Origin: a virus
Length of the DNA: 33,274 bases
IMG/VR virus record: IMGVR_UViG_3300022602_000274
Span: 1 to 33,274 of that record
Reading direction: 5' to 3' (one strand)
In this document: in pieces, positions 7,427 to 32,120 of the stretch
Position numbering within the stretch: position 1 is the first letter of the stretch
How the letters are laid out: the number at the start of each line of letters is the position of its first letter
Translations under genes and position numbers: made by a program
Notes under the pieces: model-generated
What the model saw: only the letters and a program-made list of their open reading frames with translations
Told to the model about the DNA's origin: nothing
Databases searched by the model: none

Positions 7427-7434
7427 GATAAATA
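7427..7434 (+). promoter_or_regulatory. T4-like late promoter octamer GATAAATA
   Basis: One mismatch to TATAAATA, immediately after the stop codon of the previous gene and 22 nt before the ATG at 7457. The flank TAGTAATA resembles that at 8834 (TAGTAACA). Confidence 0.42.
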
Positions 7435-7456
7435 TAGTAATAGAGAGCCTATTACT

Positions 7457-8566
7457 ATGTTTCTTACAGAACTTGCAGAACCACAATTACTTGTAATTTA
7501 CCCCGGTAGATTCCAGCCTTTCCACAAGGGCCACCATGCTGTTTATGAGTGGTTGACCGGCAAGTTTGGTCGTAGCAACGTCTACATCGCTACCAGCAAC
7601 AAACACAACGAATCAAAATCCCCTTTTACTTTTGCTGAAAAGTCATACTTTATGCAGTTGACTGGGGTTCCTGCTGATCGTATTGTGCAAGCAGTTCAAC
7701 CCTATCAAATCAAAAGTATTTTAGACACCGGGCATGTACAGGTAGCAAATCCCAAGAATACCGTAGTTATATTTGCTGTGAGCCAAAAGGACATGGCCGA
7801 AGATCCACGCTTTGATTTTGCTCCTAAACAGGATGGGTCAGACCCTTATTTTCAACCATTAAAAGATATTGGGCAGGCCGAGAACATGGAAAAGCACGGA
7901 TACATCATGACCGTGCCTACATTTGATTTTGCCATTGGTGGTCAACCCATGCAGTCCGGCACCGAGTTGCGTAAAATGTACGCGGCCAGCAGTGAAAGTG
8001 AACGTCAGAGTATTGTCAAAGACCTGTTTGGTCGTTATACTCAGGAAGCCGAGCAGATATTGACATCCAAATTGGTTCCACACAAGCCTGTTGAGCCACA
8101 CACCCTGCACAAAAAAGTCAAGTTACAAAAAGTTCCAAAACCCGCTCAAGAGCCTGTGGCCGAAGCCGGCGGAGTAGGTGTAGTACGTGGTGGAAATGAT
8201 CCACGTTATGTCATGGCCACTGCCGGTGATCAAAATGCAGTCACCGGTGCTACCCTGGGCAAAGAAATGCGGGCGTTTGGCTTGACTGGTCGTAAAAATC
8301 CTGGTGGCCCAACACAGCAAAAGAAAGTCAAAAGCAACATTGGCACAGGCATTCATGAGGATCTGGCCTGGGTACGAGATAGATTAGGCGAATCAGCTGT
8401 TGATAAATTGGCCGCACGTCACATTGAATTCCTTAATCAAGACATTGACGAAATTAAACAGCGTATTGCCACCGAAGAGTTGCCAGCGCAGTATGTGGAA
8501 AAACTTAAAGAAAAGATTGCGGCTCTTGAAAAGAAACGTCTTGAGCTGGCATTTAATCCCCAATGA
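7457..8566 (+). CDS. HxGH nucleotidyltransferase with CTS-like N-terminus
   Basis: A 369-residue protein. After a short leader MFLTELAEP, residues 12-180 form a cytidylyltransferase/NMN-adenylyltransferase-like domain: YPGRFQPFHKGH holds the HxGH motif at 23-26 and SGTELRKMY (167-175) corresponds to the ISSTxxR-type motif. It should couple a nucleotide to a phosphorylated substrate that cannot be named. The tail (about 200-369) is a linker with VAEAGG (234-239), a basic KNPGGPTQQKK stretch and a C-terminal coiled coil. MFLTELAE resembles T4 capsid-targeting leaders ending in a hydrophobic-x-E site, and VAEA could be a second prohead-protease site. Its stop overlaps the next start (ATGA). Confidence 0.75.
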   Translation: MFLTELAEPQLLVIYPGRFQPFHKGHHAVYEWLTGKFGRSNVYIATSNKHNESKSPFTFAEKSYFMQLTGVPADRIVQAVQPYQIKSILDTGHVQVANPKNTVVIFAVSQKDMAEDPRFDFAPKQDGSDPYFQPLKDIGQAENMEKHGYIMTVPTFDFAIGGQPMQSGTELRKMYAASSESERQSIVKDLFGRYTQEAEQILTSKLVPHKPVEPHTLHKKVKLQKVPKPAQEPVAEAGGVGVVRGGNDPRYVMATAGDQNAVTGATLGKEMRAFGLTGRKNPGGPTQQKKVKSNIGTGIHEDLAWVRDRLGESAVDKLAARHIEFLNQDIDEIKQRIATEELPAQYVEKLKEKIAALEKKRLELAFNPQ

Positions 8567-8835
8567 AAGATCACTTGATCACGGTGGATGTGTATTTTAA
8601 CTGGAGAGATCGAGTTCCACGTTATCGAGTGTTTGTAGACGGTAACCTGTTGACTGAACGAGACTTTACCTGGGGTGGGCGAGATATTTTTATTAGAGAA
8701 AATATACTTGTAAGTTTAAAACCGGGTCCGCACAATGTTGCTGTTGAACAGGTAGGATCAAATGGAATTATGCAGGCAAAAAATGTAACGCTAGATGGTA
8801 CTCCCAGTACTTTTGAGTTTGTTACAACAGAGTAA
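8563..8835 (+). CDS. Small beta-sandwich-like protein
   Basis: 90 residues, start overlapping the previous stop (ATGA), so probably translationally coupled. The sequence alternates strands and turns: VDVYFNWRDRVPRYRVFVDG, a WGGRDIFIRE turn, LVSLKPGPHNVAVEQVG and STFEFVTTE. The W-x-(D/K)-x-VP-(R/K)-Y-x-V pattern is shared with gene 6980-7426. LKPGPHNVAVE looks like the edge strands of small immunoglobulin-like or carbohydrate-binding modules. No enzyme motif. Possibly a virion surface or adaptor protein. Function unknown. Confidence 0.65.
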   Translation: MKDHLITVDVYFNWRDRVPRYRVFVDGNLLTERDFTWGGRDIFIRENILVSLKPGPHNVAVEQVGSNGIMQAKNVTLDGTPSTFEFVTTE

Positions 8836-8841
8836 TAAATA
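8834..8841 (+). promoter_or_regulatory. T4-like late promoter octamer AATAAATA
   Basis: One mismatch to TATAAATA, overlapping the previous stop codon, 21 nt before the ATG at 8863. It heads the run of CTS-like genes. Confidence 0.42.
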
Positions 8842-8862
8842 TAGTAACAACGGAAAAAAGCA

Positions 8863-9303
8863 ATGAAAACAACAGATTTTATCAATACTTACGCCACTGA
8901 ATCAGAAGAAGAAATCAGTATGGTTGTCAACAACCTACACACCATCATGCGTGTAACAGCTGACCTAGCCAAACGTGTTCGCGGCAGTGAAGACCTAGAC
9001 GAATGGTGCAAGGAAAAGATTGCAATTGCCAAAAGCATGATGGTTACCGTTGAAGATTATATTGCCAGCCAACAAGAAATGGGCGGCAGTGAAGAAGTTG
9101 CAGGATTTGATGCTGAACGTGCAGAACGTGCTTTTGCTGAAAGTCTAAACGAAAACGCAACAGGCGGTGCAACTGGTTCGGCCAGCATTGGCGTAGCAGT
9201 CAAAAGCCTAGGCGAAATGCCTACAGAAGTTATCAAACGTCAACAGACATATACCAATCAACGTACTCCAGGTGGTCCTGTTAAAGTAAAGAAAGCCAAG
9301 TAA
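8863..9303 (+). CDS. Unknown helical phage protein, possible internal head protein
   Basis: 146 residues, mostly helical. It starts MKTTDFINTYATESEEE, similar in style to T4 internal-protein leaders (Met-Lys, short amphipathic helix, acidic end). Residues 20-68 are a helical region (VVNNLHTIMRVTADLAKRV). The C-terminal 50 residues are Gly/Thr-rich and finish with RTPGGPVKVKKAK, which resembles the KNPGGPTQQKKVK element in the nucleotidyltransferase tail and the RGPITLRSKKTK end of gene 13783. Its stop shares one base with the next start. Family not recognised; capsid-internal location is inferred. Confidence 0.65.
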   Translation: MKTTDFINTYATESEEEISMVVNNLHTIMRVTADLAKRVRGSEDLDEWCKEKIAIAKSMMVTVEDYIASQQEMGGSEEVAGFDAERAERAFAESLNENATGGATGSASIGVAVKSLGEMPTEVIKRQQTYTNQRTPGGPVKVKKAK

Positions 9304-10310
9304 TGGATAATAATTTTAGCAAGATCCTGGAAACATTTAAACGTCTTGATGAGGCTGCTAATCCAGCACAGCAGGCCGCCATTGCCATTGCCATGAAGAA
9401 GGCACATAAAAAGCCCAAAACTGAAAGCGAATATGACGAGCGCGACATGGACGAACCTTGGGCACATGCTCAAGTAACACAGGCCGACATTGCTCGTTCC
9501 AAACAGGTCAATACAGCCGCAGGCAAGTATTCACCTGAAGTGTATGATCGCATGGCAAAAGATCCTGAATATGCACGACACATGCGTGATATGCAAAAAC
9601 AACATCACGGCATGGCCGAAGGCATGACCAAAGAAGCCATGTGGAAAGATGCTGAGCGCATGACACGCGACCAGTTCTGCGAAAAGTGGGGCGATGAACA
9701 TGCTGAATTTTGGGACGCCATCATGGGCGAAATGGACGAAGGCTCCATGGCTGATGCTGAACATCATCCTGACGGCCCTCACTTTGGCGGCTACTGGAAA
9801 GGCACAGATCCTAATCCACCCAAGCCAGGCCAGGGTGTAGGCGGCATGGAAGAAAGTGGCGTTGAAGCCAACTATGTACAAGGAGCCGGAGTTGATGATA
9901 GCCAAAGCCCAATACATACTCGTAGACTAAATGTCGACGAAGAGTGGGACGCATTTATGAATGAAATTGCTGGCGCTAACAATCCAGCACAAGGAACAAG
10001 TTCTACTGGAACCAATTCCATTGATGCCGCCAAGACAGCCAAAGAAATCAGTAATGCACAACAAAGTTTAAATAAATTCAAAGCCGCTGGAACAAATCTT
10101 CCAGTCAGCGTGGGTCAAGCTGCTAAGTCAGCTGTGGCCACTGCTTCTAATCCAGCCGCGGCAACAACCGGTCAAGGTCTAGATTCAAATGCCAAGAAAA
10201 CAACAATGGGTCTTGGTCAGCAGATAGAAAAACTCTTGACAACTGGTAATCAAGGACAGGTACAACAGGTAGCCAATGCTATCAAACAGAGCAACATGGG
10301 ACAGAAGTAA
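9303..10310 (+). CDS. Unknown protein with several prohead-protease-like sites
   Basis: 335 residues, low in hydrophobics and probably largely flexible. The leader MDNNFSKILETFKRLDEAAN ends in an L-x-E-A site at 15-18, the T4 gp21 cleavage form. Further candidate sites are MAEG (104-107), MDEG (144-147) and MEES (182-185). Between them lie charged helical stretches (DRMAKDPEYARHMRDMQKQ) and a YWKGTDPNPPKPGQGVGG linker. The last 115 residues are Ala/Gly/Thr/Gln-rich. Start and stop overlap both neighbours by one base. No known enzyme domain. I infer a packaged or scaffold-type head protein that is processed; it could also be an ordinary low-complexity structural protein. Confidence 0.65.
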   Translation: MDNNFSKILETFKRLDEAANPAQQAAIAIAMKKAHKKPKTESEYDERDMDEPWAHAQVTQADIARSKQVNTAAGKYSPEVYDRMAKDPEYARHMRDMQKQHHGMAEGMTKEAMWKDAERMTRDQFCEKWGDEHAEFWDAIMGEMDEGSMADAEHHPDGPHFGGYWKGTDPNPPKPGQGVGGMEESGVEANYVQGAGVDDSQSPIHTRRLNVDEEWDAFMNEIAGANNPAQGTSSTGTNSIDAAKTAKEISNAQQSLNKFKAAGTNLPVSVGQAAKSAVATASNPAAATTGQGLDSNAKKTTMGLGQQIEKLLTTGNQGQVQQVANAIKQSNMGQK

Positions 10311-12994
10311 TGTTTATATTTGATTTATTTGAAAAGTCCAAAGATCTTTATAACCGAACTCAAAATGCGGCCATCAAGCGCGGCATTGAGCAAGGTCGTC
10401 GATTGGACCCTTCAACTGGTAAAGATGATACCGCTGCCGTTGCAAGTTGGGTAGCTGGACAACAGCAAGATCTTGACCAAGAAAAAGAACAAAATGCTCG
10501 TCAAGAAAAAGAAATCAAAGCATTAAATCAACGTGTATCTGCCTTGTCCAAGGCCACAGGTACCACAACAGAACCCGCACCGGTTGCCAAACCTACACAA
10601 ACATTTGAACCCAGGACTGGTACTCCTATTGGACCAACTGCACAGGCTCCAGCGGCACCTGCTAGGCCCGCTACACCAGCTCCAGCGGCACGTGTTGCAG
10701 GCGCACCTCGGTTGGCTCCATCTACCTTGCCGGCAACTCAACCCAGTAACGTGCTGGCCATGCCTACTGCTACTACTGCTACAGCACCTGCACAGGCAAC
10801 CACCGCTGCTCAACCAGCTGTTACTCCTGCCGCTACACCAGCTGGACGTGTGGTTAGTCCCGCTGATCAGTTGGATCAATACAAACAACCTGAACCCACT
10901 ACCAGTACAGCACTTGGACAAATGGCTCAAACTCTTGCTCCCCCAGAAGAAGAATTACCATTCAAAGGCAAAGGAAAGGCACCTAGTACCGCTGGAATCT
11001 TTGGAGTTGGCGGCAGTCCAAAACAACGCGATGCCGACGCTGTAGCCGCCAAGAAAGATCAAACTACAGCAGAACCTACAGCACAGGCTCCTGATGAGAA
11101 ACCTGACTATAGTCAGCTGGGCGCCATGGGACAACTTATACATGGCCCATGGGGCACACAAGGGCAAGAAGAACCAATGAAAAAAGTTGCCAATATGAGA
11201 GAGGGCGCAGAGCCTACTACCAGTCCAGCAATTGGGTCGATGGTTAACCAACTATCACCAGGTGCTCCACAAACATACAAATATCCGCCAGCGATAGATC
11301 CGGTGGACAAACAAATACAAGACAATGCCAAATCATTTGGCACTGGAAAACTGCGTGATCGCGATGCACGATTGTATTATGGTCCTGCTAATGTGACCGT
11401 TCCTGCTGAGGAAGTTGCTCGCATATGGGAATATGTCATGGTAAAATACCCCAATCAGGCCGAACAACTGGATGCGTGGAAGAAAATTTTTAGTAATCTA
11501 AATGTTCTTAGAACTATACGACAATTGGTAGGCGAAATACAGCAAAGCCTGCCAATCAAAGAAGGTGACGTAATACCCATGACTGGGCAACCTCAGGTGC
11601 CAGCCGAAGTCAAGGCCTATCAATACGCTTTAGAAATATTAAAATCTGCATTCAACCCTGCTGTGCCTACTGCCAAAGTAGATCAAATGAAACAGATTCT
11701 GTTCCACGATTTCCAAGCACGTATACAGCAAAAGCCCGATGGTGCTTACTATCTAAATTTCAACAACGGCCGAACACAGAATTTACCAGATCCTCGTACT
11801 TTCCCAATGGAAGAAGGTGCTATGAACGACATCGACATTGGTCGTCAAGATTTACAACGTCTAACTGATCAGCAGTTCCAAAAAGCCTACGGAATCAGCA
11901 AAGAATTCTGGAAGTATCGTAACCAAGCTGTACTCAAAAAACCAGCACGTCGTCCAATGAGCCCACAATTGGCCAAGAGCGCCGTGGGTCAAAAGATGAA
12001 CACACTTTATGGACAAACTTGTCCTGGTTGCGGCAATTCTATCAACCCAGATCGTTGCGTATGCGAAGATTCTTGGTCGGCAGGCGACAATGCCTGGTCC
12101 AGTGAACACAACAATTGGACAGCTGAAGCTGCTGGAGAACCTGTTATAGCATTGACTGGTGTAGACGAAGATCGTTTACATACAGGTGATCCTGTCGTTG
12201 TTACGGCGCCAAATGAGTTTGAAGGTAAGACCGGTGAGATTGAAGAATTTAGTCCAAGCGGAAAATTTGTTATTGTGAATCTTTACAATCACGGTCGCCA
12301 CAGCATGCACTTGTCAGATGTTGAGTATAATCACTATGCCGACAAAGAAGATCAAGTCGACGAAGGTTATCAGGACTTTAAAAAGGTAGAACCATATGCT
12401 GTTTGCCTAGCTGGCAAGCCTGTAAAGAAATTTGACTACTATGAACAAGCTCGTCAATTCCACGACAACTGGAAGAAGAAGTTATACAATCAAGGTAACA
12501 AGGCCAAAGCAGATAAGATTACACTAATGCCCATCATGGATGAGGACAGCAATGACTTTATGGCCAATGACAGCACCAGCCCAGTGGGCGGTAAGGTTGA
12601 TGAAATCAAACAACGTCTGGATGCCAAATGCTGGTCAGGCAAGCACAAAGAAGGCACCAAGATCAAAGGTGGCGTTAGAGTCAACAACTGTGTGCCTAAT
12701 GAAAGCATCGAAGAAATGGACAAGAGTCAAAAAGGTGCCGCTGGTTGGAACATTGATGACTATGATTACAGCAAAGGTAAATGGACTCGTGCCAAAATAA
12801 TGACAGCCAAGGATGCCGTCAAAAGTGCCACTAAAGATTTAGATGCGGCATTTAATAACGCAGACAAAAAGAAACCTAAGCCAGTTAAAGAAAACTACTG
12901 GACTAAATTACAACGAGAACGTGACCAACGGCAACATGCCAGAGCCTACGATCTATTAGAATCATTACAAGATGTGTTTAAGGATATTAAATGA
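10310..12994 (+). CDS. Large multidomain protein, candidate processed internal virion protein
   Basis: 894 residues. It starts MFIFDLFEKSKDLY, has a coiled coil (about 54-82), then a long Pro/Ala/Thr-rich linker to about 215. A short repeat EPTTSTALGQMAQTLAP (195-211) and EPTTSPAIGSMVNQLSP (301-317) flanks LPFKGKGKAP. Residues 340-490 look globular and helical. A zinc-knuckle-like CPGCG...CVC (571-585) follows, then an SH3/KOW-like beta segment (about 605-675). The C-terminal part contains a Cys/Lys/Gly module (CWSGKHKEGTKIKGG...NNC) and a basic helix. Candidate prohead-protease sites are MREG (296-299), IKEG (416-419), MEEG (500-503), TAEA (604-607) and VDEG (683-686). Family not recognised; packaged polyprotein is inference. 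Confidence 0.7.
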   Translation: MFIFDLFEKSKDLYNRTQNAAIKRGIEQGRRLDPSTGKDDTAAVASWVAGQQQDLDQEKEQNARQEKEIKALNQRVSALSKATGTTTEPAPVAKPTQTFEPRTGTPIGPTAQAPAAPARPATPAPAARVAGAPRLAPSTLPATQPSNVLAMPTATTATAPAQATTAAQPAVTPAATPAGRVVSPADQLDQYKQPEPTTSTALGQMAQTLAPPEEELPFKGKGKAPSTAGIFGVGGSPKQRDADAVAAKKDQTTAEPTAQAPDEKPDYSQLGAMGQLIHGPWGTQGQEEPMKKVANMREGAEPTTSPAIGSMVNQLSPGAPQTYKYPPAIDPVDKQIQDNAKSFGTGKLRDRDARLYYGPANVTVPAEEVARIWEYVMVKYPNQAEQLDAWKKIFSNLNVLRTIRQLVGEIQQSLPIKEGDVIPMTGQPQVPAEVKAYQYALEILKSAFNPAVPTAKVDQMKQILFHDFQARIQQKPDGAYYLNFNNGRTQNLPDPRTFPMEEGAMNDIDIGRQDLQRLTDQQFQKAYGISKEFWKYRNQAVLKKPARRPMSPQLAKSAVGQKMNTLYGQTCPGCGNSINPDRCVCEDSWSAGDNAWSSEHNNWTAEAAGEPVIALTGVDEDRLHTGDPVVVTAPNEFEGKTGEIEEFSPSGKFVIVNLYNHGRHSMHLSDVEYNHYADKEDQVDEGYQDFKKVEPYAVCLAGKPVKKFDYYEQARQFHDNWKKKLYNQGNKAKADKITLMPIMDEDSNDFMANDSTSPVGGKVDEIKQRLDAKCWSGKHKEGTKIKGGVRVNNCVPNESIEEMDKSQKGAAGWNIDDYDYSKGKWTRAKIMTAKDAVKSATKDLDAAFNNADKKKPKPVKENYWTKLQRERDQRQHARAYDLLESLQDVFKDIK

Positions 12995-13347
12995 GAGTAG
13001 CTGAACTATTTGATGAATCTGCAGCCTGGAAGCGCAAAGAAGGCAAAAACAAAAATGGCGGCCTAAACAAAAAGGGTGTTGCTAGTTATCGTCGCGAACA
13101 TCCTGGCTCTAAGTTACAAACAGCAGTAACTACCAAGCCTTCAAAGTTGAAAAAGGGTAGCAAGGCAACCAAGCGTCGTAAGAGCTTCTGTGCTCGTATG
13201 GGTGGTATGAAGGGCCCAATGAAAAAGCCCAACGGAAAGCCAACACGCAAAGCACTAGCCCTACGTAAGTGGCATTGTGAATCAGTGGAGCAATTAGAAA
13301 CCATGCTGATGATTGCAGAGTCGTGGTTTAAAAATCAGAATAAATAG
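12991..13347 (+). CDS. Basic Cys-containing phage protein with Alt-like leader
   Basis: 118 residues, start overlapping the previous stop (ATGA). The leader MRVAELFDESAAW closely resembles the N-terminus of T4 Alt as I recall it (MELITELFDE), with a possible cut after ELFDE. The rest is strongly basic: KKGVASYRREHPGSKLQ, KLKKGSKATKRRKSFCARMG and ALALRKWHC. The RRKSFCARM...RKWHC pair of cysteines recurs in a small phage-associated domain that I believe corresponds to DUF6321, but I cannot confirm the number. DNA binding inside the capsid would fit the charge. The reading frame ends in the AATAAATAG octamer before dps. Confidence 0.65.
   Translation: MRVAELFDESAAWKRKEGKNKNGGLNKKGVASYRREHPGSKLQTAVTTKPSKLKKGSKATKRRKSFCARMGGMKGPMKKPNGKPTRKALALRKWHCESVEQLETMLMIAESWFKNQNK
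13339..13346 (+). promoter_or_regulatory. Late-promoter-like octamer AATAAATA before dps
   Basis: Overlaps the stop of the previous gene. It lies only 5 nt before the dps ATG at 13352, so a transcript from it would be nearly leaderless. Less convincing than the octamers 21-31 nt upstream of other genes. Confidence 0.25.
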
Positions 13348-13351
13348 TACT

Positions 13352-13786
13352 ATGGAACAATTAATTAAAGCCGCTAAGATTGGATTTGCAAGTCAATACA
13401 CATTCTACTTGAAAGCACATTTTTTTCATTGGAATGTGGAGGGCATCAACTTCCAAGAACTGCATAGTCTGTTTGAAACTATCTACACAGAAGTCTACGG
13501 CACAGTAGATGAGTTTGCAGAAAAGATTCGTAGCCTAGGTGGTTATGCCCCTGGATCAAATAGTCGATTCAGTATGCTAACACAGATTGCAGACGAAACA
13601 GAAATAATGCCAGGCATAGCCATGGTTGATGAATTGTTACAAGACGCAGACAACATGGTCAAAATACTCAAACGTGTTTATGATCTTGCCGAATCGGAAG
13701 GCGAACACGGATTCAGTAACTTTTTAGCTGAACGTATGGATGCATTTAGAAAACACGCATGGATGCTAAGGGCAACTACAAAATGA
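13352..13786 (+). CDS. dps: Dps-family ferritin-like protein
   Basis: 144 residues from ATG 13352, where the family match begins (MEQLIKAAKIGFASQ); 13 extra in-frame codons upstream lie in the previous gene. Dps proteins form 12-mers that oxidise and store iron using peroxide and may bind DNA. The ferroxidase ligands are complete with the exact spacing of E. coli Dps H51/H63/D78/E82: H26, H38, D53 and E57, within AHFFHWNVEGINFQELH and DEFAEKI. No basic N-terminal DNA-binding tail is present. It lacks a CTS-like leader, unlike its neighbours. The end overlaps the next start (ATGA). It could protect phage or host DNA from oxidative damage. Confidence 0.9.
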   Translation: MEQLIKAAKIGFASQYTFYLKAHFFHWNVEGINFQELHSLFETIYTEVYGTVDEFAEKIRSLGGYAPGSNSRFSMLTQIADETEIMPGIAMVDELLQDADNMVKILKRVYDLAESEGEHGFSNFLAERMDAFRKHAWMLRATTK

Positions 13787-14196
13787 AAATAAACGAAATT
13801 ATTACCGAAGCCGCTGATCATCATGCCGATTCTGCCAAATTAGCCGGTGATCAAATTGCAGCCTTAAAAGGTGCTGCGAGTTTGCCTGCTATCAGTATGA
13901 ACAAATCCAATGGTAGTGCATATGAACAATATCGTTTTATGATTGCTACCGGCTTGGTAGATGGCAAAGGCACTGGCGAATACATGGCGGCCGCTGGTGC
14001 CATGGCAGGCGATCCTTTGTTTACCTGCTATACAGATGAAGAATTTGCCATGATCAAAGATGCTGCTGAAATGTTAGGAGTTGGTCCAGTAAATCAACTC
14101 AGTAATCAAAAAAGTATGGAAGCAGATGATGTGCATAAGGTAAGCCCACATCAACCACGTGGTCCAATCACTTTACGATCTAAAAAAACAAAATGA
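13783..14196 (+). CDS. Unknown protein with CTS-like leader
   Basis: 137 residues from ATG 13783, which overlaps the dps stop (ATGA); the upstream Met at 13759 lies inside dps. The leader MKINEIITEAADHHADSAKL resembles T4 IP-type capsid-targeting sequences, with I-T-E-A fitting the gp21 cleavage consensus. Residues 40-105 are compact and Gly/Ala-rich (YRFMIATGLVDGKGTGEYMAAAGAM), followed by DEEFAMIKDAAEMLG, a helix. The end RGPITLRSKKTK is basic and resembles the ends of genes 8863 and 7457. Family not recognised. Confidence 0.65.
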   Translation: MKINEIITEAADHHADSAKLAGDQIAALKGAASLPAISMNKSNGSAYEQYRFMIATGLVDGKGTGEYMAAAGAMAGDPLFTCYTDEEFAMIKDAAEMLGVGPVNQLSNQKSMEADDVHKVSPHQPRGPITLRSKKTK

Positions 14197-14567
14197 AAAT
14201 CCATGAAGTCTTAACAGAGAATCGAACCAATTCTTTTGTTAAGGATCATATTCAATGGGTTGCAGACCAAGTTGGCATTCGCCATCTTCCTAAAATAGTC
14301 TTACTAGATAAACCTCGTGACACTACATTTGGTCAATATGAACCCGCAGATAAATGTATCTATTTGGTAACCGGTGGGCGCCATCCTGTTGATGTACTAC
14401 GCACCCTGGCTCATGAGCTAACACACTACAAACAGGATTCCGAAGACAATCTACCACCAGGCGCCGGCGAAACAGGTACTGATCAAGAAAACGAAGCCAA
14501 TGCTAATGCAGGCATTGTCATGCGCGACTTTGCTGAACACAATCCTGAATATTTTGGACTAAAATGA
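14193..14567 (+). CDS. Small zinc metalloprotease (HExxH) with CTS-like leader
   Basis: 124 residues, start overlapping the previous stop (ATGA). HELTH at 74-78 gives two zinc His and the catalytic Glu. ENEANANA around 99-106 supplies a downstream Glu (about E101) as likely third ligand, so it is a gluzincin- or SprT-like minimal protease of unknown substrate. The N-terminus MKIHEVLTENR has the same design as its neighbours, with a possible cut after LTE. That would place a protease inside the capsid or with the injected proteins. Its end overlaps a tiny reading frame (ATGA) leading to the deaminase gene. Confidence 0.75.
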   Translation: MKIHEVLTENRTNSFVKDHIQWVADQVGIRHLPKIVLLDKPRDTTFGQYEPADKCIYLVTGGRHPVDVLRTLAHELTHYKQDSEDNLPPGAGETGTDQENEANANAGIVMRDFAEHNPEYFGLK

Positions 14568-14641
14568 ATCCAACCCAATATCCTGTATGGCCCGAAGACG
14601 ACGGTTATGATAGCCCAAGAAATCCTTACTCCCCAGTCTGA
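14564..14641 (+). CDS. Possible 25-aa coupling peptide
   Basis: ATG at 14564 overlaps the metalloprotease stop (ATGA) and encodes MNPTQYPVWPEDDGYDSPRN... to a TGA at 14639-14641. It ends inside the deaminase gene, whose own start at 14607 has only a weak ribosome-binding site. It may be a short leader that brings ribosomes to 14607, or chance. Confidence 0.25.
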   Translation: MNPTQYPVWPEDDGYDSPRNPYSPV

Positions 14642-15239
14642 TCCCCAAGAAGAATTGGATCGTATACTCACACGTTGCTGTGAGATGGTACTCAACGGCC
14701 AAGAGTCAGACAATGATTTTTATGGCATGGTTGGTGCCTGTGTGGTATGCCCAGACGGCCAGCTCATATATGGTGTTAACTACGAAGGCGAAGATGGACG
14801 TCGTGTACACGCAGAACGTGCTGCATTAGAACGTTGCGACAACATAACACCTGAATGTATTATTGTTACTACATTGAGTCCGTGTAATCGCCCAATGGAC
14901 GAACGGTCTGGTGAAAGTTGTGAAGACCTAATTGAATCATATGGCATCAAATATGTCTATTGCGGTTATAAAGATCCCACACAGGCACATGATGACAGCA
15001 TTGAATCTGACAATCCAAAACTCAAATCTTTGTGTAAAAAATTAGCCGATACATTCTTGAAAGAAAACTTTGCCGACGGCAAGGTAAAAGGTAAAAGTCG
15101 TCCAGGACGGGTTAAACGTGCAGGTGCTAGTTGCTCGGGGAGTGTAACCGACTTACGTAAGAAGGCCAAAAATGCTTCAGGAGAACGTGCTAAAATGTAT
15201 CACTGGTGTGCCAACATGAAGTCTGGCAAGAAGAAATAA
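14607..15239 (+). CDS. CDA-fold deaminase fused to basic Cys module
   Basis: 210 residues. The N-terminal domain (about 15-125) is a cytidine/deoxycytidylate- or RibD-type zinc deaminase: VHAERAAL holds HAE at 68-70 and SPCNRPMDERSGESC gives PC at 92-93 and a second Cys at 105. The 11-residue gap between the cysteines is longer than in standard dCMP deaminases (2 residues), so the substrate is uncertain. The tail (about 150-210) is a separate basic module with GKSRPGRVKRAGASCSGSV and KMYHWCANMKSGKKK, containing two Cys and resembling the basic Cys proteins upstream. Roles could be nucleotide metabolism or a nucleic-acid-bound deaminase. Confidence 0.7.
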   Translation: MIAQEILTPQSDPQEELDRILTRCCEMVLNGQESDNDFYGMVGACVVCPDGQLIYGVNYEGEDGRRVHAERAALERCDNITPECIIVTTLSPCNRPMDERSGESCEDLIESYGIKYVYCGYKDPTQAHDDSIESDNPKLKSLCKKLADTFLKENFADGKVKGKSRPGRVKRAGASCSGSVTDLRKKAKNASGERAKMYHWCANMKSGKKK

Positions 15240-20540: not shown

Positions 20541-21163
20541 TTGTAGACGCAGGGTTTTTAACTACTTGGAAAAACAAAGGTCACGTGTTTGGCCAATGCA
20601 TGAGTCACCCTGGCGGTGATCTCATGTATGTAAACATTCCCAAAAACGCCAGTTCATGGACCAAGCCCAATCTAAAAGATCTTGGGTGGGAGTTTTACAA
20701 CTATCACACAGATCAGTTGGACAAACATGCACTAGTGGTCTTGCGTGATCCTGTAGAACGTTGGCTCAGTGGTATTGCCGAATACCTGACTCTGTATCAT
20801 CAGACTCTTGCCATTGACTCAACAGAAACCCTGGATATTATTTTTGATCGTGTGTGCTTTGATGACCATACCGAGCAACAGATAAAATTCATACACGGGC
20901 TTGATACTGACCGCTGTACGTTCTTTAGATGTGATTCTTACTATAGAGAAGACTTTAGTACATTCTTGGATGATCACGGTATACCCAATCGTTACCACAA
21001 GTACGAGTTTCAGCACGTGAGTGAATCCAGTCCGGACCGCCGAAGATTTCAAGAAATTTTTCGTGCCCAGTTAGAAAAATCTAAATATCTTACACAGATT
21101 AAAAACTACTATGAAGAAGATTACAGATTAATGGATTCAGTGGAATACTATGGGTCAAGATAA
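20537..21163 (+). CDS. Sulfotransferase-family protein
   Basis: 208 residues, starting with TTG? no: the frame opens at a GTGATTG overlap where ATTG/TGA join the clamp stop; the annotated start codon at 20537 is GTG. The core matches PAPS-dependent carbohydrate sulfotransferases: NIPKNASSW (33-41) as the 5'-phosphosulfate loop and VVLRDPVERWLSGI (67-80) as the 3'-phosphate-binding motif with Arg and Ser. It would move sulfate from PAPS to a sugar or other acceptor. It is shorter than cellular enzymes (about 250-300). The end overlaps the radical-SAM gene by 14 nt, so they are coupled. Substrate unknown. Confidence 0.7.
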   Translation: MIVDAGFLTTWKNKGHVFGQCMSHPGGDLMYVNIPKNASSWTKPNLKDLGWEFYNYHTDQLDKHALVVLRDPVERWLSGIAEYLTLYHQTLAIDSTETLDIIFDRVCFDDHTEQQIKFIHGLDTDRCTFFRCDSYYREDFSTFLDDHGIPNRYHKYEFQHVSESSPDRRRFQEIFRAQLEKSKYLTQIKNYYEEDYRLMDSVEYYGSR

Positions 21164-22175
21164 ACTTGATTTGAGATTGTTTAACACCACGTGGATGCAG
21201 TCGCATGTGCGTGGACAAAACTATTCAGGTCCGCCCATTACACATCACTGCACACAACCTTGGAAAACCCTGGTTGTCAATTTGGAAGGTGATTGTTTTG
21301 TATGTCTATGTGAAGCACACTTGCCTATTCCAGTTGGAGCAATAACCGACTTTGACGCTATAGAAGATGTATGGACCAGCGACGCTGCACAGGTATTACA
21401 ACAGACTATTTTAGATAAAACCTTTACTTATTGTGCTGTAACTGATTGTGGTATCATTGAACGAGACATCATATCCGGGCATCATATCAACATCAACATA
21501 GATGAAAGTTGTAATCTTGCTTGTCCTACCTGCCGACGTGGCATGATTAATCACACTAGTGGTCCGTTATTTGAACGGAAACTGGCTCAGGTCAATCACT
21601 TTGTAAAGTTAATTAACAAGTTTGATCAGCCAACGAATTTGGTCATGTCGGGCAATGGTGATCCATTGGCCAGTTTGATCATGAGACCACTATTTTTAAA
21701 CTGGAACCCATTGCCCAATCACAGCATTGAACTGGCTACCAATGGCCTGTTGATGAAAAAATTGTTGCCCAACAGCCCAATACTGCCAAATATTAAAACT
21801 TTTAAAATCAGTGTTGATGCCGGAACCAAAGAAATATATGAACAAGTCAGGCGTCCGGGTAAATTTTCAGTTATCAAAGAAAATTTAGATTGGTTGGCTG
21901 AAAACCGCAGGCCAGGAGTTGATGTAAATTTAATGTTTTGTATCAGTGTTACAAATGCAGGAGACATGATAAATTTTGCCAATATGTGCAGAGACTACGG
22001 ATTTGCTGCAAAATATACCCATGTAACTGATTGGAATACATTTGACAACTTCGCCAGCCAGGATGTTATAATTAACACTGACAATCCCTTGCATCCGCTG
22101 GCAGTAGAACAATTACAAACCATTGCAACAATGCCGCATGTAGATTTGTCACCGACACTGAAAAGATTACTATGA
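21150..22175 (+). CDS. Radical-SAM protein with N-terminal SPASM-like domain
   Basis: 341 residues. The canonical CxxxCxxC of radical-SAM enzymes is CNLACPTC with C121, C125 and C128, followed by a (beta/alpha) barrel with SGNGDPLAS, ELATNGLLM and FKISVDAGTKEIYEQVRRPG. Before it, residues 30-102 have the cysteine pattern of a SPASM domain: C34, then GDCFVCLCE (C49, C52, C54), then PVGAITDF...VW, then C95 and C100. SPASM normally follows the barrel, so the order is permuted. It should bind one 4Fe-4S cluster in the barrel and an auxiliary cluster in the SPASM part. Target unknown: peptide or sugar modification is possible. The end overlaps dpdA by 4 nt (ATGA). Confidence 0.75.
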   Translation: MGQDKLDLRLFNTTWMQSHVRGQNYSGPPITHHCTQPWKTLVVNLEGDCFVCLCEAHLPIPVGAITDFDAIEDVWTSDAAQVLQQTILDKTFTYCAVTDCGIIERDIISGHHININIDESCNLACPTCRRGMINHTSGPLFERKLAQVNHFVKLINKFDQPTNLVMSGNGDPLASLIMRPLFLNWNPLPNHSIELATNGLLMKKLLPNSPILPNIKTFKISVDAGTKEIYEQVRRPGKFSVIKENLDWLAENRRPGVDVNLMFCISVTNAGDMINFANMCRDYGFAAKYTHVTDWNTFDNFASQDVIINTDNPLHPLAVEQLQTIATMPHVDLSPTLKRLL

Positions 22176-23713
22176 CCCAAGACAACCTAACCGCTAAACA
22201 GAATGACTATGCTGTGTTTCTTCCAGCCATCAGTGGCTTCTATGCCACATTTGTAGGTAAGCAACGCAACGATAATTATGTAGACCCAGCACGTATGCCA
22301 GCTGGATTGACAGATATGGAAATGATGAATTGGTTAAATCCTACCAAGGCATTGTTCCCTTATAAGTGGTCACTTTACTCCGGTGGCCACGCAAACCTCG
22401 ACCTGAACAAACAGGACTGGTCAGAGGATATGGTACGCAATCGAGACCCCAACACACTAATGCTAGGCGACTCTGGTGGATTCCAGATTGCCAAAGGATT
22501 ATGGGAAGGAGATTGGAAGGCCCATTCAGGATGCCCGAAGGCCCAGAAAAAACGTGAACAAGTTTTGGCTTGGCTGGACGGCATTGCTGATTACGGTATG
22601 ATTCTTGATATTCCGACCTGGGTAGTGCATGATCCACATGCCAGCGCCAAGTGTCAGATTACCACGCACCAAGAAGCTGTAGATGCTACCAAGTACAACA
22701 ATGACTACTTTATGAAACACCGCAAGGGTGTTGCCAATGGTGGTGCCCGGTTCTTAAACGTGTTACAAGGTGCCAATCATAAAGAAGCAGAAGATTGGTA
22801 TCAGACAATGAAACACTATTGTGATCCTGCGGTTTATCCCGACACACACTTTGATGGCTGGGCCATGGGCGGACAGAACATGTGTGACGTACACTTGATC
22901 TTGCGTAGACTAGTGGCTCTGCGCTACGATAATCTATTACAGGAAGGTGTTCATGATTGGATGCACTTCTTGGGCACAAGCAAACTAGAATGGGCAGTCT
23001 TGCTCACAGTTATACAACGTGCTATTAGGAAATATGTTAATCCTAGTTTTACAATATCATTTGATTGTGCTAGCCCATTCTTAGCCACAGCCAATGGACA
23101 GGTATATCATCACATTGACCTACCCGATGGCGGCAAATGGTCATATCGCATGAGTCCCATCGTGGATGATAAAAAATACGCAACCGACACCAGACCCTTT
23201 AGAGATGCTGTGCTACAGGATAAACTGATACATCACTTTGACGAAAGTCCACTCAGTGCGCTGTGTCAAATGAAAGATATCTGTGTATACAAGCCGGGCG
23301 ATGTCAATAAGAATGGTAAAGAAGGCAAAACATCGTGGGATAGTTTTAGTTATGCACTCTTAATGGGACATAATGTATGGATGCATATCGAGTCAGTACA
23401 ACGTGCTAATCGTCAATTTGATCTAGGTGCTCATCCAGCCATGATGCGGCGCAGTGAAGGTGACTATGCGTTCTTTGAGGACATTGTAGAGGCTATATTT
23501 TCTGCTCCTACCCGAGCCGAAGCTGAAGCCATCATCGAAAAATACGATGAGTACTGGATGGAAATCGTGGGCACACGTGGCTTCAAAGGTAAGAAAACAC
23601 GCAATAGCCTGACCAACTTTAACGCACTATTTGAGTTTGAAGATGGTAGCGAAGATGAAGCAGAACCCGAAGTAGAATTTGATGAATCACGACTTGACCA
23701 ACTGGAGGCCTAA
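22172..23713 (+). CDS. dpdA: DpdA: DNA guanine transglycosylase (TGT paralog)
   Basis: 513 residues. TGT-fold enzymes swap guanine for a 7-deazaguanine base; phage DpdA proteins act on DNA. Landmarks: LMLGDSGGFQ with the catalytic-pocket Asp D100 (DSGGFQ 100-105), FLNVLQGAN (Q199) matching the VQGG loop, GWAMGGQ (229-235) matching the GG(L/S) loop, and FDCASPF (297-303) matching FDCVxPTR with nucleophile D298. The bacterial TGT zinc motif C-x-C-x2-C is not seen in the expected place; only ALCQMKDICVY with two Cys is there, although the following HNVWMH keeps a His. It is longer than tRNA TGT (about 375). It should modify phage DNA against host restriction. Confidence 0.85.
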   Translation: MTQDNLTAKQNDYAVFLPAISGFYATFVGKQRNDNYVDPARMPAGLTDMEMMNWLNPTKALFPYKWSLYSGGHANLDLNKQDWSEDMVRNRDPNTLMLGDSGGFQIAKGLWEGDWKAHSGCPKAQKKREQVLAWLDGIADYGMILDIPTWVVHDPHASAKCQITTHQEAVDATKYNNDYFMKHRKGVANGGARFLNVLQGANHKEAEDWYQTMKHYCDPAVYPDTHFDGWAMGGQNMCDVHLILRRLVALRYDNLLQEGVHDWMHFLGTSKLEWAVLLTVIQRAIRKYVNPSFTISFDCASPFLATANGQVYHHIDLPDGGKWSYRMSPIVDDKKYATDTRPFRDAVLQDKLIHHFDESPLSALCQMKDICVYKPGDVNKNGKEGKTSWDSFSYALLMGHNVWMHIESVQRANRQFDLGAHPAMMRRSEGDYAFFEDIVEAIFSAPTRAEAEAIIEKYDEYWMEIVGTRGFKGKKTRNSLTNFNALFEFEDGSEDEAEPEVEFDESRLDQLEA

Positions 23714-29039: not shown

Positions 29040-29220
29040 ATATCCTATAGTTACCGTGGGTAGCCATAGTGTCAGAACTGAATACGAAGATGGTCGAGTT
29101 GACTTTGTGGTAGACGATGCCAAGCTACAAGCCGACGTGTATTCTGCATTAGCTGAATATGTGGCCACACAGAGTGAAGCTATAAATACAGCTACACCAA
29201 CTAAAAAAAGAAAAAAATAA
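28984..29220 (+). CDS. Small Lys-rich protein
   Basis: 78 residues, start inside the previous gene with CAGGAAAAAC upstream as ribosome-binding site. N- and C-termini are basic (KKPVVEKTPVKKTKSKYP and PTKKRKK), the middle is compact: TVGSHSVRTEYEDGRVDFVV and a helix (DAKLQADVYSALAEYVATQ). Both ends could bind nucleic acid. The stop shares one base with the amidohydrolase start. Family unknown. Confidence 0.6.
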   Translation: MATKKPVVEKTPVKKTKSKYPIVTVGSHSVRTEYEDGRVDFVVDDAKLQADVYSALAEYVATQSEAINTATPTKKRKK

Positions 29221-30503
29221 TGCAATTTATCGATGTTGATTCTCACTATTTCCCCGCGGATTGTTACAAAAAACTACCAGAACCATTCAAGAGTTTAGCA
29301 CCACAATTCCATTGGAAGTCATATTCAGAGAAACCTGCCTGGTGGGACATGACCTACGGCGTTCCTACAGCCAGAGACGATGGTGCTACTACAAAAAAAG
29401 TGTATGACTGGGAAAATTTTAAACACTCAAGGTTTGTATGCGATGACAACGGATATCATGACATTGATATATTTCCTGGTGGTGTGTCAAGATATCTTGA
29501 TTCTGTTCGAGTTGGGTTAGAGAAAAAATTACCATTCAGCAAGGATTACGGTGGACCGCACAGAGGTAGTTTAAGATATTCTGAACCCGGAGCTGTGGAT
29601 TTAGAAGCAAGAAAATCCGCCATAGCCGCACTGGGAGTTCATAAAAATGTCCTGGTTCCTTACAATTACATGCTAGGGCTAACCTACAGAATAAACTATG
29701 AACTGGCCGTGGCCATGGCTGACGCATACAATTCAACGGTACAAGAAGATTGCCAAGGTCAAGAACAATTTTGGCCATTGATTTGGATTCCAGCACAAAA
29801 TCCAAATGTCAGTCAAAATTTGCAAATGATTGAACAGGGAATACAGCGTGGTGCTGTGGGTGTAATGCTGGGCGAACACTTTACTTCAGTCAGTCATTGT
29901 CTAGGCCAAGCCTGGGGTACCTGTAGTTGGATGGAACCTGTGTGGGCACATGCTGACCAACACCAATATCCTATTTTCTTTCATATCAATGACTGCTGGT
30001 ACGACAATTTAAAATATTTAAAAACCACAGACCCGGCCATAGTGGCCAACTGGTACAAGGTACACGAAAAACTAATACCCCTGATCAAACACAGCGATGA
30101 TCCCTTGCAAGGATTGTATGAATTGAGTTTTGCCAGTTTGATTACCGAAGGTGTGCTGGATAGATATCCAAACTTGCGGCTGACCTGGCAGGAAAAAGGA
30201 ATACATTGGGTCTTGCCTTTGTTGAACAAGTTATCCGAACTGCTCGGACGTGACTGCACACAATATTTAAAAAATTGGAGTTTTGGAATACAGCCTGAAT
30301 GGCCCAACTTTGATACCGACGCCAAAGCCATTGGCTATGATCGTTTGTTGTTCTGTACCGATTATCCACACTACGATCCTGCTGGCAAAAATCAAGAAAA
30401 AGATGTGGCAATGGTAGTGGCCATGGACATTGAACAGATCAACAAAGAAAAAATGGCCGGCTTGAATGCGGCTCGATTGTTTGACAAAACAAATTTTAAA
30501 TAA
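29220..30503 (+). CDS. Amidohydrolase-2 family metal-dependent hydrolase
   Basis: 427 residues with the TIM-barrel plan of the Amidohydro_2 family (decarboxylases and hydrolases such as ACMSD-like enzymes). Metal-site landmarks: FIDVDSHYF (D5-x-D7-x-H9) at the start of strand 1, FFHIND with H255, and FCTDYPHYD with D381 and H384 near the end, then NAARLFD, which is typical of the family. QRGAVGVMLGEH and LPLIWIPAQNP mark intermediate strands. The substrate is unknown. Such genes are unexpected in phages. It lies between small phage genes and the sugar-nucleotide genes. Intact and full length. Confidence 0.75.
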   Translation: MQFIDVDSHYFPADCYKKLPEPFKSLAPQFHWKSYSEKPAWWDMTYGVPTARDDGATTKKVYDWENFKHSRFVCDDNGYHDIDIFPGGVSRYLDSVRVGLEKKLPFSKDYGGPHRGSLRYSEPGAVDLEARKSAIAALGVHKNVLVPYNYMLGLTYRINYELAVAMADAYNSTVQEDCQGQEQFWPLIWIPAQNPNVSQNLQMIEQGIQRGAVGVMLGEHFTSVSHCLGQAWGTCSWMEPVWAHADQHQYPIFFHINDCWYDNLKYLKTTDPAIVANWYKVHEKLIPLIKHSDDPLQGLYELSFASLITEGVLDRYPNLRLTWQEKGIHWVLPLLNKLSELLGRDCTQYLKNWSFGIQPEWPNFDTDAKAIGYDRLLFCTDYPHYDPAGKNQEKDVAMVVAMDIEQINKEKMAGLNAARLFDKTNFK

Positions 30504-30536
30504 TATACCAAATTTCTACTAGATTAACAGTATCTA

Positions 30537-30545
30537 TGCTATAAT
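30537..30545 (+). promoter_or_regulatory. Extended -10 promoter TGCTATAAT for the epimerase operon
   Basis: TATAAT at 30540-30545 is preceded by TG at the extended -10 position (30537-30538). No good -35 box is found at 16-18 bp. It lies in the 70-bp gap before galE and would give a leader of about 20 nt. Confidence 0.45.
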
Positions 30546-30573
30546 CTTACTAATATCAATTTAGAAAATATCA

Positions 30574-31539
30574 ATGAAAAAAATTATAGTAACCGGCGGA
30601 TGTGGTTATATTGGTAGCCATGTTGCACGAGCATTCAAGCAAAACGGCGATCAGGTCTTGATCATTGATCGGGTGTTACGATTACATACGCTAAAAGGTA
30701 TTGATGGATACCATATTGGCGACTTTGCCGATGATGCCAGTCTTGCTGCTATTTACGATTGGAATCCTGACGTTATTGTACATTGTGCCGGCACTAGCTT
30801 AGTCGGTCCCAGTATGACAGATCCAGGTGTTTACTATGACAACAATATCAGTAAAACCATAAAATTACTGAACTGGGTCAATAGATTTACAAAAAAACCC
30901 ATCATCATGTTTAGTTCAAGTGCGTCGGTATACGGTGAACCCGAGGCCTTGCCTATCCGTGAAACTGCTCGTGTACAACCTATCAGTCCCTACGGTCGTA
31001 CCAAGGCCATGACCGAAACCATACTCAAAGACTTCTGGGGTGCCTATGCCCTGCCCAGTACAATTTTTAGATATTTCAATGCGGCTGGTGCAGAACCTGT
31101 TGCCTTTGACCTTGGCCAAGAACCTGAGGCTACTCATATTGTTGCTCGTATCTTGGAGGCCAGTATCACAGGTCATGTGTTCAGTATCAATGGTGAAGAC
31201 TTTGATACTCCTGACGGCACTTGTATCCGTGACTATGTTCATGTGTGGGATATTGCCCGTGCTCATGTCATGGCCGCTGAACGACACTACACACAGGCTG
31301 GTGCTATACAGAGAATTTACAACTTGGGCACCAACCAAGGTGTCAGTAACAAGCAAATTGTAGACTATGTGGCTGAAAAATACGGCTTGATTCACGTCAA
31401 CTACGGACACAGACGCATGGGCGATCCGGCACAACTGGTAGCTGATGCTGAGTTGGTCGGAGTAGAGTTGGGATGGCGACCCGAGTACAGCGATATTGCT
31501 ACCATTATCGATTCAGCTTACAAGTGGTACACTCAATGA
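30574..31539 (+). CDS. galE: NAD-dependent sugar epimerase, GalE-like
   Basis: 321 residues of the extended SDR family. NAD-binding VTGGCGYIGSH (6-16; GxxGxxG at 8-14), SSSASVYGE (114-122) with the catalytic Ser, and SPYGRTKA with Y140-x3-K144. RYFNAAGAEP and the later GTCIRDYVHVWDIARAH match UDP-glucose 4-epimerases. It likely interconverts UDP-Glc and UDP-Gal or their N-acetyl forms to feed the glycosyltransferases. Slightly shorter than E. coli GalE (338). It is the first of three coupled genes; the next start overlaps its stop (ATGA). Confidence 0.85.
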   Translation: MKKIIVTGGCGYIGSHVARAFKQNGDQVLIIDRVLRLHTLKGIDGYHIGDFADDASLAAIYDWNPDVIVHCAGTSLVGPSMTDPGVYYDNNISKTIKLLNWVNRFTKKPIIMFSSSASVYGEPEALPIRETARVQPISPYGRTKAMTETILKDFWGAYALPSTIFRYFNAAGAEPVAFDLGQEPEATHIVARILEASITGHVFSINGEDFDTPDGTCIRDYVHVWDIARAHVMAAERHYTQAGAIQRIYNLGTNQGVSNKQIVDYVAEKYGLIHVNYGHRRMGDPAQLVADAELVGVELGWRPEYSDIATIIDSAYKWYTQ

Positions 31540-32120
31540 CATTTCAAACCCTGTTTGACTTTGAGGCCGCGCTAGCTGAATATACCGGTGCACCATATGT
31601 GGTAGTAACCGATGGGTGTACTCATGCTATAGAACTTTGCTTTAGATTAGACCGCATTACCTACACAGAATTCTCAGCCTTTACGTATCTAAGTATTCCA
31701 CAGCTGATGCAGGAACTTGGCGTCAGGTATGAACTAAAGACTGACTACTGGCAATCAGTGGGCCAATATCAGTTTGGGTACACCAATATCTGGGACAGCG
31801 CACTACTGCTGAAACCCAACATGTATCGTGCCGGACACAAGCAATGCCTGAGTTTTGGGCATGGTAAGCCACTCAGCATCGGCAAGGCCGGTGCCATCCT
31901 GCTGGATTCAGAATGGGAATATGAAGAACTGAGTCGCATGCGATCAGATGGTCGCGATCTACGTATCTCACCCTGGCAGGCGCAGGAGACCTTTGGCGAA
32001 GGCTATCACTACTGCCCTACCTTAGAAACATGTCAATTGGGTATAGAAAAATTACCCCTGGTCAACCCAGAACCTAAATATCACGAATACCCAGATTTAA
32101 GAAAATTGACGTTCAAATGA
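31536..32120 (+). CDS. Shortened DegT/DnrJ-like PLP aminotransferase
   Basis: 194 residues from ATG 31536, which overlaps the epimerase stop; the longer frame from 31473 runs inside galE. Sugar aminotransferases of this family are about 370 residues. Present: FEAALAEYTGAPYVVVTDGC (9-28) matching the FE..fA.y.G...v.v.SGT start, an Asp at NIWDSAL (D87) and SFGHGKPLSIGKAGAILL (106-123) with K111 at the PLP-lysine position. The C-terminal small domain is missing, so it may be a minimal or degenerate aminotransferase, or bind sugar-nucleotide without full catalysis. Its stop overlaps the next start. Confidence 0.6.
   Translation: MTFQTLFDFEAALAEYTGAPYVVVTDGCTHAIELCFRLDRITYTEFSAFTYLSIPQLMQELGVRYELKTDYWQSVGQYQFGYTNIWDSALLLKPNMYRAGHKQCLSFGHGKPLSIGKAGAILLDSEWEYEELSRMRSDGRDLRISPWQAQETFGEGYHYCPTLETCQLGIEKLPLVNPEPKYHEYPDLRKLTFK

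Follow-up and report, generated by a model that had tools for sequence, protein, structure and literature searches.

In bacteriophage T4, the internal head proteins IPI, IPII and IPIII and the Alt protein carry a capsid-targeting sequence (CTS) of about ten residues at the N-terminus. In IPIII, targeting depends mainly on residues 4 and 7 and processing on residues 8 and 10, and the protease gp21 is specific for L/I-x-E (PMC9026906). The T4 record reads MKTYQEFIAE|A for IPII and IPIII, MELITELFDE for Alt and MAKINELLRE|S for gp24, with the cut marks (|) placed by the L/I-x-E rule. The prohead core proteins gp22 and gp67 are each cut several times by gp21, which yields small peptides. Here, we analysed the viral record IMGVR_UViG_3300022602_000274, a stretch of 33,274 bases (the window) with genes for replication and metabolism and no recognised head genes. 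It contains a cluster of ten co-directional genes (7457-15239), five of which start with a capsid-targeting leader of one T4-type design. By analogy with T4, this cluster very probably codes for internal head proteins of a T4-related phage, which would be matured by a gp21-type protease and co-injected.

The five leaders are MFLTELAE (start at 7457), MFIFDLFE (10310), MRVAELFDE (12991), MKINEIITE (13783) and MKIHEVLTE (14193). An earlier note on this DNA had pointed to such leaders, and all those it quoted were found in frame in open reading frames (ORFs) of the window; the observation of T4-like leaders is confirmed. The likeness to Alt that the note had pointed out agrees with the T4 record (MELITELFDE vs. 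MRVAELFDE). The MKINEIITEA leader stood as well, with its start corrected from that of the longer ORF at 13759 to the ATG at 13783; the start of the ferritin gene was likewise corrected to the ATG at 13352. Both candidates regarded as looser gained from inspection: MFIFDLFEK contains L-F-E, and MKTTDFINTYATE has the family members MKTTEFLQE, MKPTEFIVE and MKTTDFIVE. Short modules, here called cassettes, recur across proteins of this cluster type and have a cut motif at their N-terminal border. The features of the cluster are the following.

7429 to 7439, plus strand: late-promoter-like TAAATATAGTA, 28 nucleotides upstream of the nucleotidyltransferase start
7457 to 7480, plus strand: nucleotidyltransferase leader MFLTELAE, kept in 13/13 distinct orthologs
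7457 to 8566, plus strand: putative NMN/NaMN adenylyltransferase-like nucleotidyltransferase, 369 residues (PF01467, NMNAT structure and fold matches)
8836 to 8846, plus strand: second TAAATATAGTA, 27 nucleotides upstream of ORF 8863
8863 to 9303, plus strand: ORF with the long leader MKTTDFINTYATE, recognised from ortholog leaders, and C-terminal cassette D after LNE|N
9154 to 9300, plus strand: cassette D (NATGGATG...NQRTPGG), net charge +6, recurring in L018
9303 to 10310, plus strand: 335-residue protein with KRLDE|A, then cassette C (cassette border)
9354 to 9425, plus strand: cassette C (AANPAQQAAIAIAMKKAHKKPKTE), immediately 3' of LDE; 11/14 copies with a hydrophobic-x-E border
10310 to 10333, plus strand: leader MFIFDLFE of the 894-residue protein, fitting the core pattern
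10310 to 12994, plus strand: 894-residue multi-module protein of unknown function with only weak PHROG matches
12605 to 12703, plus strand: cassette B (IKQRLDAKCWSGKHKEGTKIKGGVRVNNCVPNE), immediately 3' of VDE; hydrophobic-x-E just upstream in 34/51 distinct copies
12991 to 13017, plus strand: leader MRVAELFDE, near T4 Alt MELITELFDE, with ortholog leaders
12991 to 13347, plus strand: leader plus DUF6321 protein, net charge +22 (PF19846, E = 1e-21)
13352 to 13786, plus strand: ferritin/Dps-like protein without leader (PF00210, E = 8e-23)
13783 to 13809, plus strand: leader MKINEIITE|A, recurring on non-homologous bodies (compare T4 gp24 MAKINELLRE|S)
13783 to 14196, plus strand: 137-residue leader protein of unknown fold; MKINEIITE retained at 3/3 distinct N-termini of homologs
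14193 to 14219, plus strand: leader MKIHEVLTE|N; in an alignment of 8 sequences the letters vary and the pattern is constant
14193 to 14567, plus strand: zinc-metallopeptidase-like protein (HELTH), 124 residues, with invariant HE..H
14607 to 15239, plus strand: cytidine deaminase (PF00383, E = 1e-10), leader-like N-terminus MIAQEILTP without a cut-site Glu
15066 to 15236, plus strand: cassette E (NFADGK...WCANMKSGKKK), net charge +14, immediately 3' of FLKE; 17/17 copies after [LIV]xE

The core pattern M[KRF]h.[ED]hh..E (h, hydrophobic) was derived from the window leaders and is present at 5 of 47 N-termini in the window, compared with none of 241 internal Met positions, and all five matches lie inside the one ten-gene cluster (p = 1.6e-4). 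Eight other contigs had matches at 19/1860 N-termini vs. 1/6975 internal Met positions (p = 2e-12). Because the pattern had been shaped on the window and some of these 19 are orthologs of the very genes from which it was drawn, three further tests were applied, which used the exact peptide, its codon spelling and the orthologs. For the first, MKINEI(I/L)TEA was searched as degenerate DNA in viral stretches and in 257 Gb of bacterial genomes. Viral matches came from 32 stretches, where the peptide precedes many bodies unrelated to one another (GNAT, kinase-like, DUF6267, cassette proteins and small unknowns), and the bacterial genomes gave one match in a chromosomal aminopeptidase, an unrelated chance match. 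The leader DNA shows 28 distinct spellings of almost one peptide (one of them from the chance bacterial match), and therefore selection acts on the protein. Among orthologs, the letters change and the pattern stays, as seen in 13/13 nucleotidyltransferases (including MFIAEMFTE, MFVTELFE and MYISELAE), 14/19 metalloproteases and the 12991 family (MKITEIIVE, MKVTEIITE, MKSSDFVVE). The leader was absent from all control families, i.e., DNA polymerase (0/72), tRNA-guanine transglycosylase-like protein (0/49), ferritin (0/34), GalE (0/17), ClpA (0/10) and DnaJ (0/10). A rule taken only from the published IPIII mutagenesis (hydrophobic-x-x-hydrophobic-hydrophobic-x-E) picked the starts at 12991, 13783 and 14193, corresponding to 3/47 N-termini vs. 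1/241 internal Met positions (p = 0.015), and the T4 spacing rule alone gave 27/1907 vs. 32/7216 for the pooled sequences (p = 1.6e-5). A strict leader regular expression applied across the contigs was dropped as too loose, since internal Met positions matched about equally often.

A gp21-type protease of family S77 (E = 6.5e-26) is encoded together with gp23 (E = 2e-98) in a T4-ordered operon of a 374-kb relative, whose DNA polymerase is 83% identical to that of the window. S77 was also present in three DUF6321-bearing contigs and in all leader-bearing cyanomyophages tested. With propeptide boundaries set by eye, the gp23 propeptide of the 374-kb relative ends with KMLAE|N, and the corresponding position in the gp23 N-termini of three other S77-bearing contigs reads LYE|S, LSE|S and LNE|S. 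Because gp23 of the relatives shows such sites, the same protease is expected to use sites of this kind.

Evidence from virions comes from distant relatives. We mapped the S-CREM2 virion proteome obtained by mass spectrometry (PMC10665884, Table 3) onto the annotated S-CREM2 genes and scored leaders by the exact T4 positions M..h..hh.E (4/7/8/10), a rule that replaced a somewhat less strict version, for which the counts were 5/28 vs. 3/167 (p = 0.002). Leaders according to the exact rule were present in 5 of the 28 non-structural or unknown virion proteins, compared with 1 of the 167 undetected ones (p = 2.4e-4). These five are an S-adenosylmethionine (SAM) hydrolase, an APH-like kinase, a cytidylyltransferase and two unknowns. 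S-CREM2 virions also yielded gp137, which has DUF6321, and gp160, which has cassette B. In S-SCSM1, the NMNAT detected in virions by published mass spectrometry has the N-terminus MKSFLQFLKE|A, and leader-bearing NMNATs occur in phages with S77. As these are functional counterparts of the proteins described here, packaging in the phage of the window appears probable by analogy, as the earlier note had proposed; its interpretation of the leaders is supported. In a separate observation, the Cas9-like virion protein gp12 of S-CREM2 (L292:7704-10313) contains the internal leader-like sequence FASFMAE|A about 20 residues in, which may reflect a wrongly annotated start codon or a shifted leader.

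A feature beyond the earlier note is the presence of L/I/V-x-E sites at the borders of swappable peptide cassettes, a system which exceeds T4 as described. It includes the cytidine deaminase at 14607-15239, which the note had not covered and which carries its C-terminal cassette after FLKE|N. Cassette E follows [LIV]xE|NF[AH]DGK in 17/17 distinct contexts, with an invariant P1, a P3 which is always L, V or I, and variable P2 and P4-P8. Deaminase homologs have cassette B (FLDE|DCW) or DUF6321 (LDE|S) at this point instead, and those without a cassette read FLKN or FLNT, without Glu. Before DUF6321, hydrophobic-x-E stands directly at the domain in 44/80 loci, and nearly all others lack the Glu and often start with MAKTAAW. 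In complete GenBank genomes, S77 is present in 6/6 cyanomyophages and 0/5 others, and the occurrence of Glu before DUF6321 matches this exactly (p = 0.002). A search of 40 contigs gave three S77 positives, all with Glu before DUF6321, where absence says little because most of these contigs are fragments. In two Pelagibacter podoviruses, the DUF6321 gene is located between the scaffold and capsid genes. Of the 14 distinct copies of cassette C, 11 have a hydrophobic-x-E border and the other three begin at their own Met (e.g., MAKSRAQQAAIAIS). Cassette B follows ITE|AVKQRLD or FLTE|VKQRLD in relatives, and cassette D of L018 follows FIKE|D as a leader-plus-cassette protein. A phiKZ-type specificity, for which the published motif of the diverged head protease is S/A-x-E, was rejected: P3 was L in 9, V in 6 and I in 2 cases at cassette E, and L in 23, I in 13, V in 11 and M in 4 cases at DUF6321, with S/A-x-E not seen. 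Two further arrangements were recorded: L252 and L266 contain cassette B and DUF6321 in tandem (CWEGYSPVPGKKKEEKGSCAKSPAKKTAAW) with no hydrophobic-x-Glu site between them, and an 814-residue leader protein (G009 contig, 36058-38502) is made of unrelated segments that repeatedly meet at VAE|G and VAE|A borders, possibly representing a larger polyprotein.

The reading of these borders towards which we lean is that the prohead protease of T4-related phages strips the leaders and also excises swappable, often basic cassettes appended to enzymes (DUF6321, CW-, AQQAAIA-, NQRTPGG- and FADGK-type), so that each virion would deliver an exchangeable set of co-injected peptides. Phages lacking the protease would code directly for homologous cassettes, and at least some of them would do so within the head cluster, from a position flanked by scaffold and capsid genes. 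The alternative that survives best, although we regard it as unlikely, is that the leaders behave as in T4, both in targeting and in being cut, while the L/I/V-x-E sites at the cassette borders stay unprocessed, the cassettes remaining fused and the borders reflecting recombination at conserved linkers. The homology of the cassettes may indeed just extend over the residues before the border, and the detection of the S-CREM2 proteins gp137 (DUF6321) and gp160 (cassette B) in virions by mass spectrometry (PMC10665884) would also agree with uncut borders. However, the invariant Glu, restricted P3 and variable neighbouring positions at cassette E correspond to a protease-site profile, the Glu is lost in cassette-less deaminases, and in S77-negative phages, the homologous cassettes are without the site and begin roughly where the border would be.

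Several observations weigh against head packaging of the cluster proteins. Short motifs with degenerate positions occur often. In the 374-kb relative, matches to the T4 spacing rule were not enriched when this rule was used by itself (4/587 vs. 13/2060, p = 0.54). With a broad leader regular expression, detected and undetected S-CREM2 proteins could not be told apart (3/28 vs. 16/167, p = 0.53). The authors of both virion proteomes considered that the enzymes could be contaminants of the CsCl preparations, those of S-CREM2 leaving cargo vs. contamination undecided (PMC10665884). The nucleotidyltransferase leader ends with LAE|P, which is unfavourable for cutting, and in some relatives the ending is ...DP. 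Finally, a direct search of the window detected neither an S77 protease nor head genes, and the protease that the earlier note had suggested looking for, which is missing from the 33-kb fragment itself, was present in the 374-kb relative as well as in further phages with leaders or DUF6321.

Three other explanations were considered. It is improbable that the leader proteins are parts of the scaffold core which are degraded and expelled at maturation like T4 gp67 and gp68, without delivery to the host. In T4, as published, the core proteins are cleaved and for the most part lost, and the protein at the gp67 position of the 374-kb relative starts with the same kind of leader (MFVTELFDP); yet leader-bearing enzymes were detected in mature S-CREM2 and S-SCSM1 virions, and GH19, GNAT and GGACT enzyme domains among the cargo are unlikely as scaffold. 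We consider it very improbable that the motif sorts proteins to another phage structure, such as a membrane or replication site: short amphipathic N-termini serve many sorting roles and head targeting in this clade is argued by analogy, but the sequences are near T4 gp21 substrates, the leader predicts virion presence in S-CREM2, and leader-bearing NMNATs occur in S77-bearing phages. A coincidence among AT-rich N-termini, suggested by the degenerate pattern and the small window, has a negligible chance in view of the frequencies outside the window (19/1860 vs. 1/6975), the reuse of the leader on unrelated bodies and the zero counts in control families.

For internal head proteins, the following course would be expected. 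Late-type promoters would transcribe the cargo genes, and the amphipathic leader of 8-13 residues would, as in T4, dock the cargo on the prohead scaffolding core. A gp21-type S77 protease would then cut after L/I/V-x-E and remove the leader, and judging from the conserved sites, it may also free small cassettes in several proteins. The matured cargo, comprising the NMNAT-like nucleotidyltransferase, the metallopeptidase, DUF6321, other cassettes and probably the deaminase cassette, would stay with the DNA and be injected at the next infection, again as in T4. The placement of TAAATATAGTA is consistent with late transcription: the window contains only two exact copies, both in promoter position, with none expected from a Markov model, and in the 374-kb relative it lies 26 nucleotides before portal gp20 and before the leader-bearing nucleotidyltransferase. 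The nine-base TAAATATAG is informative by placement only, as its 11 occurrences in that genome are near the expected 8. The canonical T4 late promoter TATAAATA was discarded, its one window copy not being at the cluster, where TAAATATAGTA is found instead.

Regarding the cargo, the 7457-8566 protein is NMNAT-like as judged from its matches to PF01467 (E = 7e-6), an NMNAT structure in the PDB (E = 1.5e-3) and the NadD/NadM fold (E = 7e-5, template modelling score about 0.5 to the target), the similarity being moderate. The leader of ORF 8863 has a displaced cut site and resembles that of T4 IPI, which is likewise long (MKTFKEFTSTTTPVSTITE|A). KRLDEA is present in the 335-residue protein (9303), as the earlier note had stated; as a CTS it is the weakest case, orthologs starting with MDNNFSDILGIFKK and MDNNFYNILQTFKR without a clear CTS, and it is better read as a cassette border. 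The 894-residue protein had no Pfam match above the cut-off. The 14193-14567 protein weakly matches DUF6782/M78 and, at E = 1e-4, the metallo-protease family phrog_87, and its homologs end with either a plain C-terminus or cassettes after LDE. The expectation of several basic proteins did not hold: the DUF6321 protein (+22) is the only strongly basic one, the others having net charges of -5 (8863), -12 (9303), 0 (10310), -2 (13783) and -7 (14193).

Some related proteins deviate from this scheme. The Dps/ferritin-like gene (13352-13786) lies within the leader cluster and is never leader-bearing. Cytidine deaminase N-termini keep h-x-E-[IF] (MRLSEF, MKILEF, MFLAEF, MIAQEIL) without a later cut-site Glu, perhaps because the leader targets these proteins and is then retained, or because cutting occurs at the early LxE. 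Leaders also precede GH19 lysozyme-like proteins (L022:7272-7907; G004 contig 96166-97323, i.e., L115:1166-2323), one with a twin-arginine translocation signal right after the leader and one in which a GGACT domain separates the leader from GH19. Elsewhere in the window, a radical-SAM/SPASM protein is followed by a 513-residue protein without Pfam match but with the DSGGFQ motif typical of tRNA-guanine transglycosylases (21150-23713), possibly a 7-deazaguanine modification pair, and 29220-32120 codes for an amidohydrolase (PF04909), a GalE-like epimerase and a DegT aminotransferase fragment, possibly a sugar-modification set.

A freshwater-type giant phage would thus place short removable address labels on a cluster of enzymes and small modules, in the way T4 loads head proteins. 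This would provide a readable sequence rule for head-carried proteins of T4-like environmental phages and allow prediction of what uncultured phages inject. It could also account for the presence of NMNATs, kinases and SAM hydrolases in cyanophage virions. Exact mature N-termini can be predicted for small modules such as DUF6321, previously without an assigned role; the deaminase and DUF6321 families serve as natural controls, with the site present together with the cassette or protease and absent without.

Compared to the described systems, polyvalent proteins are multi-domain proteins with kinase, GNAT and peptidase domains which are predicted to be packaged and injected, largely relying on embedded peptidases as proposed (Iyer et al. 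2017, PMC5512222), whereas a trans-acting prohead protease is expected here and a short leader would direct targeting. We did not assign the cluster to this class: the 894-residue protein has no recognised peptidase or other domain, and the metallopeptidase is a separate protein of 124 residues. The cyanomyophage virion enzymes (the NMNAT-like cytidylyltransferase, APH-like kinase and SAM hydrolase of S-CREM2 and the NMNAT of S-SCSM1) belong to the same functional class, and in these S77-bearing T4-like phages we found the T4-type leaders MKNFSSFLTE|A and MKSFLQFLKE|A. The text of the S-CREM2 paper makes no mention of a leader, propeptide or targeting sequence (PMC10665884). The nucleotidyltransferase motif is GRFQPFHKGH in the window vs. 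GRFNPPT or GRYNPPHKGH-type in cyanophages. As in T4 gp22 and gp67, single proteins contain several putative gp21-type sites, but the pieces here are recurrent, swappable and often basic cassettes on enzymes, with leaderless homologs in other phages. The closest likeness is to the T4 CTS proteins: an N-terminal leader of about ten residues with hydrophobic residues at i, i+3 and i+4 and Glu at i+6, a predicted L/I-x-E cut site, N-termini near those of gp24 and Alt, and one conserved leader type, combining targeting hydrophobics with a cut-site Glu, on divergent and unrelated mature proteins. In contrast to T4, the register in the window is one residue shorter (3/6/7/9 vs. 4/7/8/10), and the cargo comprises NMNAT-like, metallopeptidase, DUF6321, GH19, GNAT and kinase-like proteins together with multi-cassette proteins containing internal sites.

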